From Pseudomonas sp. B21-015 (lineage in GTDB: Bacteria; Pseudomonadota; Gammaproteobacteria; Pseudomonadales; Pseudomonadaceae): a DNA stretch of 64,000 bases. The translations under genes were made by a program, and so were the position numbers. Below the pieces are notes generated by a model, which saw only the letters and a list, made by a program, of their open reading frames with translations, was not told where the DNA came from and did no database searches. Shown in pieces: positions 3,854 through 11,533 of this stretch (its first letter is position 1; the number at the start of each line of letters is the position of its first letter). The stretch is taken from positions 2,728,001-2,792,000 of the forward strand of contig NZ_CP087196.1 in NCBI RefSeq assembly GCF_024749285.1. The letters run 5' to 3'.

Positions 3854-3987
3854 GGCGCTTCCCTCTGGTCTGTCAGCGGGTGAATAGAGCGCATGAAAAC
3901 CTCCGCACGCCGGGGGCACGCAGAGATTTCGAACAGCGCCCGCCCACCGCGGGTTTGTTATTCAGTGAACGTAAGAGTCACTTTATG

Positions 3988-4190
3988 TTGCGGGCCGGTC
4001 TCCGGGCTCGCGAGGGGCGCTGGCTTTCGCCTGAACCTGCAAGCATCACCTTCCCATGCCCTATGACAGGCACAGTGGATCTGACGCTTCACTCGCTTAC
4101 CGTTGCGGGGGCAGCACCGGACTGACATGGCTTTAGAGTAAAGCACATGATTCACCGGTTTCCCGTTTCACCCTGTGAAGGGCACCCGTA
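3988..4190 (-). promoter_or_regulatory. Cobalamin riboswitch for cbtB-cbtA-cobE-cobM
   Basis: Read on the minus strand, it has the conserved riboswitch blocks in order: GGGTGCCC, GGGAAACCGGTG, the core GCTGCCCCCGCAACGGTA, GGGAAGGTGATG, and the B12 box as GCCCGGAGACCGGC (4009-3994). It precedes cbtB by about 135 bases. In Gram-negative bacteria this element usually hides the ribosome-binding site when adenosylcobalamin binds. Confidence 0.92.
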
Positions 4191-4324
4191 ACAAGGTGTG
4201 TAGGAGAGCATGGGCGGGGGTTGGGCGTCAATTGGCAGGGGGCTTGCTCGCGAAGGCGTCATCACAGCCGGCACAGATCTCTGCGCGGACATTGACCCGC
4301 CCCCACACGATGCGTAGCCTTGCG

Positions 4325-4518
4325 CTTTCGAGGTTCTTCGGCGTCTGCCGAAGCTAAGAAGGGAACGCGGTCGATGCCGCGGCTGCCCCCGCAACTGTGA
4401 ACGGTTGTGTTTCTGCCAGGCCACTGCACGCACCTTCCACAGGGCGCGCGGGAAGGCGCAGGAATCGCCAGTCGAAAGACCGGCACACCGTCAGCCAGGA
4501 GACCTGCCTCGACACAGA
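4325..4518 (+). promoter_or_regulatory. Cobalamin riboswitch for cobW-cobN-chlID
   Basis: A plus-strand element with AAGGGAACGCGGT, the core GCTGCCCCCGCAACTGTGA, GGGAAGGCGCAGGAA and the B12 box GCCAGGAGACCTGCC (about 4503-4518). It lies about 110 bases before cobW. Together with the minus-strand element it forms a divergent pair only about 135 bases apart. Confidence 0.95.
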
Positions 4519-4627
4519 TTCTCACTTTCAACCGGGCGGGGTGATCCGGTGGCGAACTCTTCAGGCACGCGCCCCCGCGTTGCCGGTCGTCGTCCCGTAT
4601 GCCCGCCACCTTGCCAAAGGGCATCCG

Positions 4628-5689
4628 ATGAAAACACTGGCCAAACTCCCTGTCACCATCGTTACCGGCTTCCTCGGCTCGGGCAAAACCACCTTGCTGC
4701 GCCACATGCTCGACAACGCTCAGGGCCGCCGTATCGCGGTGATCGTCAACGAGTTCGGCGAGCTGGGCATCGACGGCGAAATCCTCAAACAATGCTCCAT
4801 CGGCTGCACCGAAGAAGAAGCCAGCGGCCGCGTCTATGAACTGGCCAACGGCTGCCTGTGCTGCACCGTTCAGGAAGAATTCTTCCCGGTGATGCGCGAA
4901 CTGGTCGCTCGTCGCGGCGACCTCGACCACATCCTGATCGAGACCTCCGGCCTGGCACTGCCAAAGCCTCTGGTTCAAGCCTTCCAGTGGCCGGAAATCC
5001 GCAGCGCTTGCACGGTTGACGCGGTGATCACCGTGGTCGACAGCCCGGCCGTCGCCGCTGGCACCTTCGCTGCATTCCCGGATCAAGTGGATGCCATGCG
5101 CAAACTCGACCCGAACCTGGACCACGAATCGCCGTTGCACGAGCTGTTCGCCGACCAACTGGCCAGCGCCGACCTGGTGATCCTCAACAAGGCCGACCTG
5201 ATCAGCCCTGAAGACCTGGCCCGCGTGCGCCTGGAAGTCGCCGAAGAGCTGCCGCCAGCGGTAAAAGTCATCGAAGCCAGCAGCGGTCGTCTGCCACTGG
5301 ACGTGCTGATCGGCCTCGGTGCCGGTTCCGAAGAGCACATCGACAGCCGCCACAGCCATCACGATCATCACCATGAAGGCGAAGACGATCACGACCATGA
5401 CGCGTTCGACTCCATCTCGATCGAGCTGCCACAAGCCGACGAAAGCTTGCTGATGGATGCGCTGACCCAACTGGTGGTCCAGCACGGCATCCTGCGGGTC
5501 AAAGGTTTCGCGGCGGTGCCGAACAAACCGATGCGCCTGCTGATTCAGGGCGTGGGCACGCGTTTCGACAAGCACTTCGATCGTCAGTGGGGCGCCGAGG
5601 AAGCGCGCGCGACCCGTCTGGTGTTGATCGGTCAGGCGCTGGATGCCGCTGCGCTCGAAGCGCAATTGCGCGCCGCGCTTAGCGTTTAA
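4628..5689 (+). CDS. cobW: Cobalamin biosynthesis GTPase CobW
   Basis: A 353-residue COG0523-family GTPase. It shows Walker [13 protein letters not shown] near residue 15, the family metal motif CLCC (NGCLCCTVQEEF), and NKAD for guanine recognition. A histidine- and acid-rich stretch (HSHHDHHHEGEDDHDHD, about residues 240-256) could bind metal. CobW is thought to supply cobalt to the CobN chelatase. The longer upstream frame runs through the riboswitch, so the ATG at 4628 is the start. cobN begins 3 bases after the stop. Confidence 0.95.
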   Translation: MKTLAKLPVTIVTGFLGSGKTTLLRHMLDNAQGRRIAVIVNEFGELGIDGEILKQCSIGCTEEEASGRVYELANGCLCCTVQEEFFPVMRELVARRGDLDHILIETSGLALPKPLVQAFQWPEIRSACTVDAVITVVDSPAVAAGTFAAFPDQVDAMRKLDPNLDHESPLHELFADQLASADLVILNKADLISPEDLARVRLEVAEELPPAVKVIEASSGRLPLDVLIGLGAGSEEHIDSRHSHHDHHHEGEDDHDHDAFDSISIELPQADESLLMDALTQLVVQHGILRVKGFAAVPNKPMRLLIQGVGTRFDKHFDRQWGAEEARATRLVLIGQALDAAALEAQLRAALSV

Positions 5690-5692
5690 CCC

Positions 5693-8600
5693 ATGCACCT
5701 GCTCAGGACCCAGCCCGGCGGCTTCGTGTCGGATGACAACATTGCCGACCTTGGACAAACTCCCGCCGAGCTGGTGATCCTGTGCAGCGGCGATTCCAGC
5801 CTGGCGTTGCTCGCCGAAGCGGCGCAGCAGTTGCCCGACGATTACCCGAGCCTGCGCCTGGCCAACCCGATGCAGGTGCAGAATCACGCTTCGGTCGATC
5901 TCTACGTCGATGAAGTGTTGCGTCACGCCAAGGTCATTCTGATTTCGCTGCACGGTGGCATCGCCTATTGGCGTTATGGCGTGGAGCGCTTGGTGGCGTT
6001 GTCCCAGCGCGGTGTGCAGCTGATTCTGGTGCCGGGGGACGATCGCCCGGACCCGGAACTCAGCGACCTGAGCACCGTGATCCCCGAAGACCGCGACCGG
6101 CTCTGGCAGTTTTTGCGCCAGGGCGGCATGAGCAATGCCCTGGATTTTTTCCGCTGTCTGGCCAATCGCTGGCTGGGTCGCGATTACGCCTGGGCCGAGC
6201 CACAAACCCTGCCGCGCACCGCGATCTACCACCGGCAAAAAAGCCCTGCTGAACTGAAGGATTGGCAAGCCGACTGGCAGGCTGATCAGCCGGTGGCGGC
6301 GGTGCTGTTCTACCGCTCGCACTTGCAGGCGGCGAATACCGGTTTCATCGATATTTTCTGCCAGCGTTTGCAGGCGGCGGGGTTGAACCCGTTGCCGATT
6401 GCGCTGGCCAGTTTGAAAGAACCCGGCTGCCTGACGGTGGTCGAGGACTGGCTGGATGAGGTCGAGGCGGGGGTGATTCTCAACACCACCGGTTTCGCCC
6501 AGTCCAGCCCTGAAGTGCCGCACTTGCGGCCGTTTCGCCGCAACATTCCGGTGATCCAGGCGATCTGCGCCCAGGACAACGAACCGGGTTGGCGCGCCAG
6601 CGAGCAGGGGCTCGGCCCCCGTGACCTGGCGATGCACATTGCGCTGCCGGAGCTGGACGGGCGGATCATCAGCCGGCCTATCAGTTTCAAGGACCTGGCT
6701 TGGCGCAGCGAGCGCAGTCAGTCGGATGTGGTCTGTTACCGGCCGCAACCCGAGCGCATGGATTTTGTCGCCGAACTGGCGCGGCGCTGGATCGATCTGG
6801 CGCGAGTGCCCAACGGCGAAAAACGCATCGCCCTGATCCTCGCCAATTACCCGACTCGTGATGGGCGTATCGGCAATGGTGTGGGGCTCGACACCCCGGC
6901 CGCCGCGCTGAATATCCTGCGTGCCCTGCACGCCGAAGGTTATCCGCTACCGGCCGAGTTACCGGACAGCGGCACCGCGCTGATCCAGCAATTGCTCGGT
7001 GGCGTCAGCAATGACCTGGACACTGTCGATCAACGTCCATGTCAGCAAAGCCTGGCGCTGGATGATTACTTTCTGATGTTCAACGCGCTGCCCGAAACCA
7101 ATCGTCAGGCCGTGCTGGAACGTTGGGGCTCGCCCGAAAGCGATCCGATGTTCCGTGGCGGGCGAATGATGATTGCCGGCCTGCGCTTCGGCCTGACCTT
7201 CGTCGGCATTCAACCGGCCCGGGGTTATCAGGTCGATCCAAGTGCCGTCTATCACGACCCGGACCTGGTGCCGCCCCACGGTTATCTTGCGTTCTACTTC
7301 TGGTTGCGCAACACCTACGGCGCCCACGGCGTGATCCATGTCGGCAAGCACGGCAACCTCGAATGGCTGCCGGGCAAGGGGGTCGGGTTGTCGGAAAACT
7401 GCTGGCCGGACGCATTGCTTGGGCCGCTGCCGAACATCTATCCGTTCATCGTCAACGACCCGGGCGAGGGCGCTCAGGCCAAACGGCGGACGCAGGCTGT
7501 GATCATCGATCACCTGATGCCGCCGCTGACCCGCGCCGAAACCTACGGCCCGTTGCGCAATCTCGAATTGCTGGCCGACGAATATTACGAAGCGCAATTG
7601 CTCGATCCGCGCCGCGCCCGGGAGTTGCAGCGCGACATTCTGCAACTGGTGCGCGACACGCACATCGACCGCGAACTGCAACTGGACGAGAAACTCGACA
7701 GCGATGCGGATGCGGCGATCTGGCTGCCGCGCCTGGACACGTACCTGTGTGATTTGAAGGAGTCGCAGATTCGCGATGGCCTGCATGTGTTTGGCGAATC
7801 GCCGACCGGGCGATTGCGCATTGATACCTTGGTGGCCTTGCTGCGTATTCCTCGCGGCGACGGCCGTGGGGCGCAATCGAGCTTGCTGCGGGCGCTGGCC
7901 AAGGCGTTTGCGCTAGGTTTCGATCCGCTGGACTGCGTTTTGGCCGAGCCCTGGAACGGTCCTCGACCGGACGCATTGCTGTCGATCAGTGATGAGCTGT
8001 GGCGTACGGCGGGGGATACCCGCGAACGTCTGGAGCTGTTCGCCGTGCAGTTGATCGAGCAGGCTTTAAATGCCGAGGTCGAACTACTGAACCCTCCTCA
8101 AGCCATGCCCGGACCTTGTGGGAACGAGCTTTTGTGGCGAGGGAGCTTGCTCCCGTTGGGTCGCGAAGCGGCCCCAAAAAATGGGACTGCTGCGCAGTCC
8201 AGCGGGAGCAAGCTCCCTCGCCACAGTGGCTCGCTCCCACAGGAGGATGGTTGGTCCGATGTGAGTGCGATCATCGACAGCTTGCGCGAGGTGGTTGCTC
8301 CACGCCTTGACGCCTGCGGCCCAGCCGAAATGCGCGGTTTGCTCGACGCCCTCAGCGGTCGATTCGTCCCGGCCGGGCCTAGCGGGGCGCCGAGTCGCGG
8401 ACGGCTGGACGTGTTGCCAACAGGGCGCAATTTCTATTCGGTGGACGTGCGCAACCTGCCGACCACTACCGCGTGGCGCATCGGCTTCCAATCCGCAAAC
8501 CTGATTCTTGAGCGACACTTGCAGGACCACGGCGACCACCTGCGTCAGCTCGGCCTGTCGGTCTGGGGTACCGCAACCATGCGTACCGGCGGCGACGACA

Positions 8601-9616
8601 TTGCCCAGGCCATGGCGCTGATGGGCGTGCGGCCAGTGTGGGCGACCGGTAGCCAGCGGGTCGACGATTTTGAAATATTGCCACTGAGCTTGCTCGACCG
8701 TCCGCGGGTGGACGTGACCTTGCGCGTCTCTGGATTCTTCCGGGATGCCTTTGCCAACTTGATCCGGCTGTTCGACGCCGCCGTGCAAGCGGTCGCCGCG
8801 CTGGATGAACCGGACGATCTCAACCCGTTGGCGGCCAAGGTGCGTGCCGAGCGTGAAGCACTGCTGGAGTCCGGTCTGGATGAGGAAGCGGCTCGGCGGC
8901 AGGCCGGCTGGCGCATCTTCGGGGCCAAACCGGGCGCTTACGGGGCGGGTGTGCAGGGCGCCATCGATGGCCGTCTGTGGCAAAGCCGTGAAGACCTGGC
9001 CGAGGTTTACCTGAACTGGGGCGGCTACGCTTACGGCGGTTCCGATGAAGGTACCGCCGCCCGCGAACAGTTCGCCCAGCGTCTGAGTCAGGTGCAGGCA
9101 GTGTTGCAGAATCAGGACAACCGCGAGCACGACTTGCTCGATTCCAACGATTATTACCAGTTCCAGGGTGGCATGCTGGCGGCCGTCGAAAGCCTCAGCG
9201 GTGCAGCGGCGGCCAGTTATCACGGCGACCACAGTCAGCCGGACTTGCCGAAGATTCGCACGTTGAAGGAAGAGCTGAACCGGGTGATCCGTTCCCGGGC
9301 GGCTAATCCGAAGTGGATCGACGGGGTCAAGCGTCATGGCTATAAAGGCGCGTTCGAACTGGCGGCGACGGTCGATAACCTGTTTGCGTTCGACGCCACC
9401 ACGCAGTTGATCGACGATCACCAGTATGCGTTGCTGGCGGATGCCTATTTGCTCGATCCGGCAACCCGGGACTTTGTTCGCGAACACAATCCCCATGCCC
9501 TGCGCGACATGACCGAGCGCATGCTCGAGGCGCAGCAGCGGGGAATGTGGAAAGAGCCGGGCGAATACCGCGAGGCGCTGGAGAATTTGTTGCTGGATAT
9601 AGAAGAAGACAGTTAG
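5693..9616 (+). CDS. cobN: Cobaltochelatase large subunit CobN (with in-frame REP insertion)
   Basis: A 1307-residue large subunit that inserts cobalt into hydrogenobyrinic acid a,c-diamide, using ATPase partner subunits. Conserved CobN blocks are clear (YGAHGVIHVGKHGNLEWLPG, WATGSQRVDDFEILPLSLLD, YAYGGSDEGTAARE). It is longer than I remember for Pseudomonas CobN (about 1250 residues). The extra length lies at residues about 807-850, which are encoded by a REP-type palindrome (8111-8242) lying in frame with no stop codon. Conserved sequence resumes at SDVSAIIDSLREVV. Whether the insert is tolerated or lowers activity cannot be seen. A repeat separates it from the downstream chelatase gene. 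Confidence 0.95.
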   Translation: MHLLRTQPGGFVSDDNIADLGQTPAELVILCSGDSSLALLAEAAQQLPDDYPSLRLANPMQVQNHASVDLYVDEVLRHAKVILISLHGGIAYWRYGVERLVALSQRGVQLILVPGDDRPDPELSDLSTVIPEDRDRLWQFLRQGGMSNALDFFRCLANRWLGRDYAWAEPQTLPRTAIYHRQKSPAELKDWQADWQADQPVAAVLFYRSHLQAANTGFIDIFCQRLQAAGLNPLPIALASLKEPGCLTVVEDWLDEVEAGVILNTTGFAQSSPEVPHLRPFRRNIPVIQAICAQDNEPGWRASEQGLGPRDLAMHIALPELDGRIISRPISFKDLAWRSERSQSDVVCYRPQPERMDFVAELARRWIDLARVPNGEKRIALILANYPTRDGRIGNGVGLDTPAAALNILRALHAEGYPLPAELPDSGTALIQQLLGGVSNDLDTVDQRPCQQSLALDDYFLMFNALPETNRQAVLERWGSPESDPMFRGGRMMIAGLRFGLTFVGIQPARGYQVDPSAVYHDPDLVPPHGYLAFYFWLRNTYGAHGVIHVGKHGNLEWLPGKGVGLSENCWPDALLGPLPNIYPFIVNDPGEGAQAKRRTQAVIIDHLMPPLTRAETYGPLRNLELLADEYYEAQLLDPRRARELQRDILQLVRDTHIDRELQLDEKLDSDADAAIWLPRLDTYLCDLKESQIRDGLHVFGESPTGRLRIDTLVALLRIPRGDGRGAQSSLLRALAKAFALGFDPLDCVLAEPWNGPRPDALLSISDELWRTAGDTRERLELFAVQLIEQALNAEVELLNPPQAMPGPCGNELLWRGSLLPLGREAAPKNGTAAQSSGSKLPRHSGSLPQEDGWSDVSAIIDSLREVVAPRLDACGPAEMRGLLDALSGRFVPAGPSGAPSRGRLDVLPTGRNFYSVDVRNLPTTTAWRIGFQSANLILERHLQDHGDHLRQLGLSVWGTATMRTGGDDIAQAMALMGVRPVWATGSQRVDDFEILPLSLLDRPRVDVTLRVSGFFRDAFANLIRLFDAAVQAVAALDEPDDLNPLAAKVRAEREALLESGLDEEAARRQAGWRIFGAKPGAYGAGVQGAIDGRLWQSREDLAEVYLNWGGYAYGGSDEGTAAREQFAQRLSQVQAVLQNQDNREHDLLDSNDYYQFQGGMLAAVESLSGAAAASYHGDHSQPDLPKIRTLKEELNRVIRSRAANPKWIDGVKRHGYKGAFELAATVDNLFAFDATTQLIDDHQYALLADAYLLDPATRDFVREHNPHALRDMTERMLEAQQRGMWKEPGEYREALENLLLDIEEDS
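8115..8242. repeat. REP-type repeat inside cobN
   Basis: Nested inverted repeats: outer arms TTGTGGGAACGAGCT / GGCTCGCTCCCACAG, inner arms GTGGCGAGGGAGCTTGCTCCC / GGGAGCAAGCTCCCTCGCCAC (about 8134-8154 and 8203-8223), and a central hairpin GGACTGCTGCGCAGTCC. This is the same family as the intergenic copy at 1551-1697, but it lies within coding sequence and preserves the cobN frame. Confidence 0.9.
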
Positions 9617-9619
9617 CGG

Positions 9620-9727
9620 GATCGTTCCCACGCTCTGCGTGGGAATGCCTCTACGGACGCTCCGCGTTCGGCTGTTGGGACGCAGAGCGTCCCGGGCTGC
9701 ATTCCCACGCAGAGCGTGGGAACGATC
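9620..9727. repeat. Long inverted repeat (GTTCCCACGC family)
   Basis: Almost perfectly symmetrical: GATCGTTCCCACGCTCTGCG at one end and its reverse complement at the other, with inner arms GGACGCTCCGCG / CGCAGAGCGTCC. A near-identical copy is at 27203-27306. It fills the gap between cobN and the chelatase ATPase gene. Confidence 0.88.
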
Positions 9728-9758: not shown

Positions 9759-10766
9759 ATGACCGACACCCCCCATTTCCCGCTCTCCGCCGTGGTCGGC
9801 GCCGATGACTTGAAACTCGCGCTGTACCTGACCGCCATCGACCCGAAAATCGGTGGCGTGTTGATCGAGGGCCCGCGCGGCATGGCCAAATCCACCCTGG
9901 CCCGAGGCCTGGCGGACCTGTTGGCCAGCGGTCAATTCGTCACTTTGCCCCTGGGCGCCACCGAAGAACGGCTGGTGGGCACCCTCGACCTCGACGCGGC
10001 CCTGAGCGAAGGACGCGCACAGTTTTCCCCCGGCGTACTGGCCAAGGCCGACGGCGGAGTGTTGTATGTCGATGAAGTCAATCTGCTGCCCGATCACCTC
10101 GTGGACTTGCTGCTCGACGTGGCCGCCAGCGGCACCAACCTGATCGAGCGTGACGGGATTTCCCATCGGCATTCGGCGAAGTTTGTACTGATCGGCACCA
10201 TGAACCCGGAAGAGGGCGAACTGCGTCCGCAACTGCTCGACCGTTTTGGTCTGAATGTCGCCCTCAGCGGCCATACTGCACCCGCCGAGCGGGGCCAGAT
10301 CATCCGTCGTCGACTGGATTTCGACAGCGACCCGCAAGGGTTCTGCGCCGAATGGGAAAGCCAGCAACAGGCGCTGCGCGAGCGTTGCCGGAAGGCGCGT
10401 GCCGTACTGGCGAGCATTCCCCTCGACGATGCCGCGCTGGCGCAGATCACCGAGCGCTGCTTTGCTGCCGGCGTTGATGGTCTGCGGGCCGATCTGGTCT
10501 GGCTGCGTGCAGCTCGGGCTCATGCGGCATGGCGCGGCGCGAACGCCATCGGCGAAGAAGATATCGACGCGGTCGCCGAATTCGCCTTGCGCCATCGCCG
10601 TCGAGCGCATACGACCTCTGCGCCCCAACATTCCCAAGCGCCGCAGCAGACCTCTTCGCAAACCTTGAGCCCGAACGAAGGCCAGGGCCAGTGGGGTGAA
10701 ATGCCCGCCCAGGCGCTGCCGGTCGGCGCTCGACGTGACGTGCCGAGCTGGCCAAAAAAGCCCTAG
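9759..10766 (+). CDS. ChlI-like AAA+ ATPase, small chelatase subunit (zero-frame product)
   Basis: A 335-residue AAA+ ATPase of the magnesium/cobalt chelatase I type. It has Walker A GPRGMAKST (about residue 38), Walker B GGVLYVDEVNLLPDHL, and sensor segment GTMNPEEGELRPQLLDRFG. A proline/glutamine-rich linker (about residues 290-334) ends the protein. It should power cobalt insertion by CobN. The stop (TAG, 10764) comes one codon after the heptamer A AAA AAG and just before a hairpin, so this is probably the unshifted product of a longer chlD-type gene. An in-frame ATG at 9741 is an alternative start. Confidence 0.85.
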   Translation: MTDTPHFPLSAVVGADDLKLALYLTAIDPKIGGVLIEGPRGMAKSTLARGLADLLASGQFVTLPLGATEERLVGTLDLDAALSEGRAQFSPGVLAKADGGVLYVDEVNLLPDHLVDLLLDVAASGTNLIERDGISHRHSAKFVLIGTMNPEEGELRPQLLDRFGLNVALSGHTAPAERGQIIRRRLDFDSDPQGFCAEWESQQQALRERCRKARAVLASIPLDDAALAQITERCFAAGVDGLRADLVWLRAARAHAAWRGANAIGEEDIDAVAEFALRHRRRAHTTSAPQHSQAPQQTSSQTLSPNEGQGQWGEMPAQALPVGARRDVPSWPKKP

Positions 10767-11431
10767 GCATTCGCCCTCGATCGGACGCGGGGGCGAATGC
10801 CAGACCCCGCGCAGGACGGCTGGATCACGGTAAGCAGGGCAAGCGTCACGCGGCCCGTAGTGGGGCGATCAATTGGCCCGGCACCTTGCTCGATGGTCGA
10901 CCGCGTCAACGCGACGATGTGCTGTTTCACCTGCGTACTCGCTCCCCCCACGAACTGTGGCTGGTGATCGTCGATGCCTCGGCCTCGACCCGGCGTCATC
11001 AGGCGTTGAGCGATGCCAAGGGCCTGTTGGCGCAACTGTTCGACGACGCTTATCGACAGCGTGCGCGACTGGCTTTGCTGACCGCCAGCGGTCATGTGCC
11101 GAAGTGGCAGGTGCAAGGGTTGAAGGCCTCTGCGGGTTTACGCCACTGGCTCGAAGGGCTTGGGGCTGGCGGCGGTACGCCGATGCTGGCGGCACTGGGA
11201 GAAGCGGGGCACTGGTTGGCGGCACGGCAAAAGCGTTTCCCGGCAGAGCAGCAACGGCTGTTGCTGGTGACGGATGGGCGGCTGAAGGAGTGGTCGGCGT
11301 TACCGGCGCTGGATTGCCCGGGGTTGCTGATCGACATCGAGCGGGGGCCGATTCATCTTGGCCGGGCAAAGGTGTTGGCAGCGCAGCTGCAGGTTGATTA
11401 TCGACATATCGATGAGCTGATTTCAGGTTGA
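9759..11431 (+). CDS. ChlD-like chelatase subunit (ATPase plus VWA) made by -1 frameshift
   Basis: Joining the ATPase frame to the -1 frame at 10760 gives one protein of about 557 residues: AAA+ domain, Pro/Gln linker, then a von Willebrand A domain. The VWA part (open from 10739, stop 11431) has the MIDAS motif VDASAS and GGGTPM. It has no ATG or GTG start near its beginning: the first listed start is a TTG at 10886, inside conserved-looking sequence. Residues before it (RPRAGRLDHGKQGKRHAARSG) read as real coding. The layout matches ChlD medium subunits next to cobN that rely on programmed frameshifting. Separate translation from a rare start remains the alternative. Confidence 0.75.
10754..10801 (+). 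promoter_or_regulatory. Programmed -1 ribosomal frameshift signal
   Basis: The slippery heptamer A AAA AAG (10754-10760) is in the correct phase (CCA AAA AAG in the zero frame). After a 5-base spacer comes a perfect 11-bp stem, GGCATTCGCCC (10766-10776) with GGGCGAATGCC (10791-10801) and a 14-base loop. The zero-frame stop TAG (10764-10766) lies between slip site and stem. A -1 slip continues at GCC (10760) into the VWA frame. Confidence 0.85.
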
Positions 11432-11454: not shown

Positions 11455-11533
11455 CCATCGCGAGCAGGCTCGCTCCCACATTTGATCTGCGGTGTTCACA
11501 AATCCCATGTGGGAGCGAGCCTGCTCGCGATGG
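11455..11533. repeat. REP pair
   Basis: CCATCGCGAGCAGGCTCGCTC and its reverse complement face each other across about 30 bases. It lies between the chelatase gene and the PLD-family gene. Confidence 0.85.

Follow-up and report, generated by a model that had tools for sequence, protein, structure and literature searches.

A conserved −1 frameshift signal in Pseudomonas chlD points to two cobaltochelatase subunits from one gene, with a possible mirror-image form in relatives

The window, as we call the whole 64,000-nucleotide stretch of Pseudomonas sp. B21-015 DNA analysed here, comes from a genome that is a single contig of 6.59 Mb. It carries a cobW-cobN-chlD operon, whose parts are given below by window position.

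4314–4525, + strand: cobalamin riboswitch, 5′ of cobW-cobN-chlD (Rfam RF00174, 104.5 bits)
4622–5689, + strand: cobW (TIGR02475, 533.6 bits against a cut-off of 332)
5693–9616, + strand: cobN, large cobaltochelatase subunit (TIGR02257, 1723 bits against a cut-off of 822)
9759–10766, + strand: frame-0 open reading frame of chlD, a 335-aa AAA+ ATPase and the proposed small subunit (AAA_5, AAA_lid_2)
10754–10760, + strand: slippery heptamer A_AAA_AAG, in frame, invariant in 49 distinct aligned windows
10760–11431, + strand: −1-frame continuation of chlD with a VWA domain, 223 aa (VWA_2, residues 68–173; TIGR02442 positions 458–637)
10764–10766, + strand: frame-0 stop TAG, one codon past the heptamer
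10766–10801, + strand: hairpin of 14 pairs with an 8-nt loop, starting 5 nt past the heptamer

The gene directly before chlD is cobN, and chlD starts 142 bases 3′ of it; in the fetched flanks, cobN was present at 65 of 66 loci (L037–L102). Frame 0 of chlD runs from ATG 9759 to TAG 10764–10766 and encodes 335 aa, with ATG 9741 as a second possible start. Its product matches positions 88–338 of TIGR02442 and also BchI-ChlI, each below the whole-protein cut-off. The −1 frame is open from 10760 to TGA 11429–11431 and leads straight into the VWA_2 match, as an earlier note made from the letters of this DNA had described. The two frames divide the ‘putative cobaltochelatase’ model TIGR02442 between them, the first half being matched by frame 0 and the second by the −1 frame. 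Fused, they amount to 557 aa (334 residues from frame 0 and 223 aa from the −1 frame), the proposed medium subunit.

Several other elements surround these genes. Cobalamin riboswitches in a back-to-back arrangement occupy 3976–4204 (− strand) and 4314–4525 (+ strand), the first facing the cobalt-transport gene cbtA and the second cobW-cobN-chlD. Large palindromes are located at 9620–9727, in the gap between cobN and chlD, and at 11455–11533, just past chlD. Another, with 60-nt arms that are 82% complementary, lies at 8117–8241 inside the cobN frame, which stays open; CobN thus bears a stretch of repeat-encoded residues. Presumably this palindrome is REPIN-like, in the REP naming.

At the junction of the two chlD frames, the heptamer, the TAG one codon later and the 5-base spacer (CCCTA, 10761–10765) lie exactly where the earlier note had put them. 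The ‘perfect 11-bp stem’ of that note is also present 5 nt past the heptamer; its size has to be revised, since positions 10766–10779 pair with 10788–10801 to give 14 pairs, one of them G-U. The hairpin folds at −27.4 kcal/mol, compared with −12.2 (sd 2.7) for shuffled sequences (z −5.7), and its pattern, with up to three mismatches allowed, occurs once in the window and in none of 100 shuffles. The bare string AAAAAAG is not rare, with nine occurrences in the window against 5.3 expected; the evidence is therefore carried by frame, stop, stem and conservation. No Shine-Dalgarno-like element was seen just upstream of the heptamer in the window sequence.

Conservation was assessed on 110 loci, namely the window copy, 29 loci from the genus and the best 80 named loci, of which 64 are Pseudomonas, including all of the first 43. 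The VWA part lies in the −1 frame in 98 of these; the other 12 are seven in-frame genes and five loci where the VWA part was not matched, some of which reach a contig end or include a masked stretch. Every one of the 98 split loci carries the in-frame heptamer, as A_AAA_AAG in 93 and as A_AAA_AAA in five, all Burkholderiales. The stop stands one codon past the heptamer in 97 and directly after it in the remaining one. When the VWA query was taken from a distant species, 30 further genus loci were retrieved, and all of them show the split layout and the heptamer. In the split chlD of four other loci, L203, L249 and L250 (family f2) and L251 (family f18), runs of A9, A10, A10 and A9, respectively, take the place of A6G.

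Genus-wide, the AAA part was detected in 374 of 398 genomes and the VWA part in 373. The exact 20-base motif TGGNCAAAAAAGNNNTRRGC around the heptamer has a match in 344 of the 398, against four for the reversed motif, where 344 counts genomes with a match, four of them matching twice, whose place in chlD was not confirmed singly. All 30 genomes with the AAA part but without the motif were inspected. Twenty-four keep heptamer, frame and VWA part and differ in the flanking bases alone, two (G076, G283) are at a contig edge, and four (G034, G052, G080, G215) are altered. The heptamer is thus altered in 4 of the 374 genomes, which may reflect assembly error or decay; G034 and G080 have a broken AAA part as well. 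Another genome, G162, carries the motif but has a break elsewhere in its AAA part. Two of the 24, G070 and G006 (L168 and L169), are a natural test of the stop position: the TAG is now a sense codon, and frame 0 ends in the hairpin loop, at 341 aa.

The pairing of the stem was examined in an alignment of 49 gapless windows from a set of 71, all distinct; the 22 left out differ in loop length or belong to other genera. Of the 686 stem cells, 98.5% are paired, as opposed to 34–53% when the strands are slid by one to three columns. Cells changed on both sides number 14, compared with 5.9 (sd 2.2) in shuffles, and 12 of the 14 represent a U-A to C-G exchange at one pair. Three pairs show a change on both sides (1.6 in shuffles; 57 of 500 as high), further pair types number nine (7.7; 64 of 500 as high), and six of the 14 pairs are invariant; two of five stem measures do not clearly exceed the shuffles. 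These counts mean that the stem is clearly kept and that covariation is found mainly at one pair. Among the windows left out, most of the Pseudomonas type fold into a stem here, L095 and L099 with unrelated stem sequence, and several Burkholderiales windows fold less clearly. The earlier note had proposed an alignment across Pseudomonas to see whether heptamer and stem are conserved, and both are kept genus-wide.

The frame under selection switches at the heptamer. In 45 gapless rows, which are the nearer relatives among 138 distinct rows, variability upstream peaks at the third positions of frame 0 (0.34 vs 0.18 and 0.14); past the stem, the peak is at the third positions of the −1 frame (0.28 vs 0.07 and 0.03). 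This pattern bears on the first alternative to frameshifting, that the VWA part is a separate protein made by coupled internal initiation. The earlier note had stated that this part lacks an ATG or GTG start of its own near its beginning. In fact TTG 10886 and GTG 10919 do precede the VWA match at 10961 and could serve as starts; neither position is kept among relatives, however. At the offset where start codons are most frequent (+126), 67 of the 138 distinct rows have one, and in 25 of the 98 split loci the −1 frame reaches the VWA part without any ATG or GTG. Internal initiation would also give no reason for the kept heptamer and stem, and it sits poorly with the −1-frame periodicity downstream of the stem. 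With no conserved separate start among relatives, we consider it very improbable.

The second alternative places the slip in transcription, with RNA polymerase changing frame on the A run. Transcriptional slippage is plausible on runs of A7 to A10, and relatives do have such runs. In 93 of the 98 split loci, however, the run is exactly A6 and frame-locked as X_XXY_YYZ, and a hairpin 5 nt downstream is the geometry of ribosomal −1 sites, so that polymerase slippage is left with only a few chances in a hundred. A sequencing error or pseudogene, to which the extra indels in chlD of a few genus genomes might point, is refuted by conservation and has a negligible chance, hundreds of genomes sharing the layout with coding periodicity in both frames.

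The gene complement of the host genome was also considered. No separate ChlI small-subunit gene was found there, and models for CobS and CobT gave no match, which sets it apart from the CobST-type chelatases. The next-best match to the AAA part of chlD in the same genome has 30% identity and is read as a MoxR-type protein. The locus, by comparison, shows the properties of the frameshifted chlD (fs-chlD) family: overlapping frames with the second in −1, an ATPase followed by a VWA part, a conserved in-frame A_AAA_AAR in the overlap, a downstream structure with pairing across species and a putative stimulatory role, and cobN in the genome with no separate chlI or cobS found. We see no essential difference between the window gene and this family.

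Taken together, we put the probability that the window gene is a programmed −1 frameshifted chlD of an aerobic cobaltochelatase at about 93%, judging from the sequence comparisons. According to this proposal, the 14-pair hairpin would hold up a fraction of the ribosomes at A_AAA_AAG; those held would slip back by one base, the two Lys tRNAs re-pairing from AAA-AAG to AAA-AAA. Those staying in frame 0 would stop one codon on and release the 335-aa AAA+ small subunit, while those that slip would produce the 557-aa AAA+/VWA medium subunit, and both products would work with CobN in cobalt insertion. The two-product reading of the earlier note, a 335-residue ATPase and an ATPase-VWA protein of about 557 residues from one gene, is thus supported by the kept signal and the switch of the selected frame. 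The ribosome as the slipping agent, the ratio of the products and their respective roles are what we infer from these data.

The fs-chlD family was reportedly described by Antonov in 2020, a lead that the earlier note had given and that is right in substance. The phenomenon, Pseudomonas included, was in print earlier, between 2013 and 2016. Antonov 2013 (PMC3711429), in the text available, lists a ‘magnesium chelatase’ family of 23 genes with −1 frameshifts in six genera including Pseudomonas, and gives E. coli assays of cassettes from three relatives with 63, 40 and 10% frameshifting on 11, 9 and 7 As. The portions at hand of Atkins 2016 (PMC5009743) name Pseudomonas, a conserved A_AAA_AAR and a chlD stem whose sequence is not strongly conserved, and print a P. 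protegens stem closely similar to that of the window. In Kuznetsov 2022 (PMC9227772), to judge from its accessible parts, P. aeruginosa is tabulated as stage 8, a class in which fs-chlD makes both cobaltochelatase subunits. In view of the 2013, 2016 and 2022 papers, the window is a clear case of a published phenomenon; frameshifted chlD in Pseudomonas was already known, and the present work adds genus-wide counts and base-pair counts. In the accessible text of this literature, whose cassettes carry at least 7 As, no measured frameshifting was found for the Pseudomonas A6G site or the window gene.

Two comparison systems are informative. First, the CobNST and ChlIDH chelatases, as far as the sources consulted describe them, consist of the same trio of a small AAA+, a medium AAA+/VWA and a large subunit; unlike in the window, their small and medium subunits come from separate genes. 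Second, E. coli dnaX (tau/gamma), in the parts of PMC5009743 that treat it, likewise uses A_AAA_AAG and a stem-loop to make a long and a short ATPase product. In dnaX, however, frame 0 gives the long form and the shift the short one, whereas frame 0 of the window chlD gives the short product.

The polarity of E. coli dnaX is the one that we propose for some relatives in which chlD is a single open frame. Seven such in-frame genes were among the named loci (two Motiliproteus, two Neptuniibacter, Marinomonas MED121, a Psychromonas and a Granulosicoccus bin). At E 1e-25 each of the seven genomes, for which completeness is not given, has a single match, and hence no second ChlI-like gene. No signal of the A_AAA_AAG type was found in the first in-frame relatives inspected, and the G_GGA_AAG type emerged only from a wider sample of the order. 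There, chlD was found in 65 of 293 genomes, none of which gave more than one match at E 1e-40. Fifteen of the 65 (nine of the Pseudomonas family and six weak, distant matches) were outside the analysis. The 50 analysed comprise 38 in-frame genes, 11 split genes and one (L266) that was unassigned there; this gene was also retrieved as L277, where its layout is read as split.

With the heptamer set and the 7-codon stop limit picked after seeing the data, so that the order counts are partly post hoc, 19 of the 38 in-frame genes have, in the linker joining the AAA and VWA parts, an in-frame A_AAA_AA[AG] or G_GGA_AA[AG] and a −1 stop within 7 codons, against 2.2 in synonymous-codon shuffles (sd 1.35, maximum 6 in 300). 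Leaving out the genus Marinomonas, the figure is 8 of 27 vs 1.6 (maximum 5), and counting a single gene from each genus gives 8 of 19 vs 1.4 (maximum 5). Outside the linker such sites number 3 vs 1.7 (sd 1.1) in shuffles, and bare motifs within linkers fall 22 times in the functional phase vs 8 and 6 in the other two. The remaining 19 in-frame genes lack the tested signal, including all six of family f36 (L252–L255, L258, L259), where chlD is unbroken, each genome has one ChlI/ChlD-like match and the linker has no tested heptamer.

The signal is clearest in Marinomonas. An in-frame G_GGA_AAG lies in the AAA/VWA linker of 38 of 45 loci (L179, L183, L189, L207–L248), at three different places according to clade; it is absent from the other seven, one of them truncated and MED121 among them. 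These 38 loci have a dnaX-like layout, with a continuous frame 0, a slippery heptamer and a −1 stop between the domains. A codon scan of the whole gene, in two clades grouped by heptamer position, found the top excess of synonymous conservation at the heptamer site in both: in clade A (31 rows) it ranked first of 470 windows, with a same-codon share of 0.90 vs 0.51 expected (z 5.3), and in clade B (7 rows) first of 512, with 1.00 vs 0.50 (z 4.6). GGA makes up 8% of the glycine codons in clade A, yet is kept at the site in 30 of 31 rows, and among 35 glycine-conserved columns the site alone has GGA in at least 90%. According to the accessible part of PMC5009743, G_GGA_AAG is highly shift-prone in E. 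coli.

The surroundings of the Marinomonas heptamer were analysed as well. GAGG, AGGA or GGAG occurs within 18 bases upstream in 36 of the 38 genes, compared with 7.5% at random positions, and this Shine-Dalgarno-like element most often (26) ends 7 bases 5′ of the heptamer. A −1 stop is reached within 3 codons by 25 of the 38, vs 32% of random linker positions, and only after 11 codons by four. A possible downstream hairpin has 85.7% of 196 cells paired vs 26–53% with slid strands; two of its pairs are changed on both sides, a number reached by 152 of 500 shuffles, and it is weaker than the Pseudomonas stem. CobS scored above the cut-off in none of 48 Marinomonas genomes, the weak matches in 11 of them being taken as MoxR-like.

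As for gene neighbourhood, chlD lies beside cobalamin genes in MED121 (L108; among them cobB, cbiD and a cobH-like gene) and in Neptuniibacter (L104; among them an adenosyltransferase gene, cbiM and cbiQ). Within 20 kb of the in-frame chlD, cobN was found in four of six genomes examined. The 1.5-kb flanks of 30 order loci (L177–L206) and 30 Marinomonas loci showed no cobN, and in both Marinomonas genomes examined the 20-kb surroundings showed none either. Because cobN was not found near chlD there, despite the cobalamin neighbours, a cobalt-insertion role of Marinomonas chlD is rated as likely only.

Both layouts occur within one genus, g92: three genomes (G681, G736, G737) have an in-frame chlD in which an A9 run is directly followed by a −1 stop, and two others (G562 and G735, the latter an incomplete assembly with a second chlD fragment) have a split chlD with its A9 run in the corresponding position. 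Beyond Marinomonas, candidate mirror-image sites in an unbroken chlD were seen in L263 and L269–L271 (genus g92) and in L267. On a tree of 88 AAA parts, built by a quick method and with several long branches, the split and in-frame states require at least five changes, or at least two when well-supported branches are counted.

From these sequence comparisons we suggest, at somewhat better than even odds, that recoding of chlD comes in two modes, each the mirror image of the other, and that the gene has changed from one to the other on more than one occasion. In Pseudomonas, Burkholderiales and others, assigned here to the split mode, the small subunit would be the frame-0 product and the medium one would need a −1 shift. 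In Marinomonas and several genera of the order, assigned to the mirror mode, the medium subunit would be the frame-0 product; the small one would result from a −1 shift at G_GGA_AAG or at a run of As, with a −1 stop close by and, in the case of Marinomonas, a Shine-Dalgarno-like element. The simplest account may be that selection keeps an AAA protein alone together with an AAA-VWA protein, while which of the two needs the shift is free to change. A like interchange was noted for dnaX by Atkins et al., the relevant part of whose review (PMC5009743) reports reverse polarity in some dnaX genes.

The mirror mode is possibly the new part of this work. With Antonov 2020 outside the comparison, our literature search found no paper joining chlD, dnaX and frameshift, or Marinomonas and chlD. 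Nor, with the same paper outside it, did it find one on cobalt chelatase, programmed frameshifting and small subunit.

For the window itself, a plain reading of open reading frames splits chlD and leaves the VWA half seemingly startless; the annotation should show a single recoded gene. If the mirror mode is real, it would show how, in the genomes concerned, a small subunit can come from an unbroken chlD with no chlI present, and would explain some of the in-frame chlD genomes in which no chlI was found. It would also mean that the pair of products, and not the polarity, is what selection keeps, and chlD would become a second natural system, beside dnaX, for the evolution of frameshift sites between polarities.
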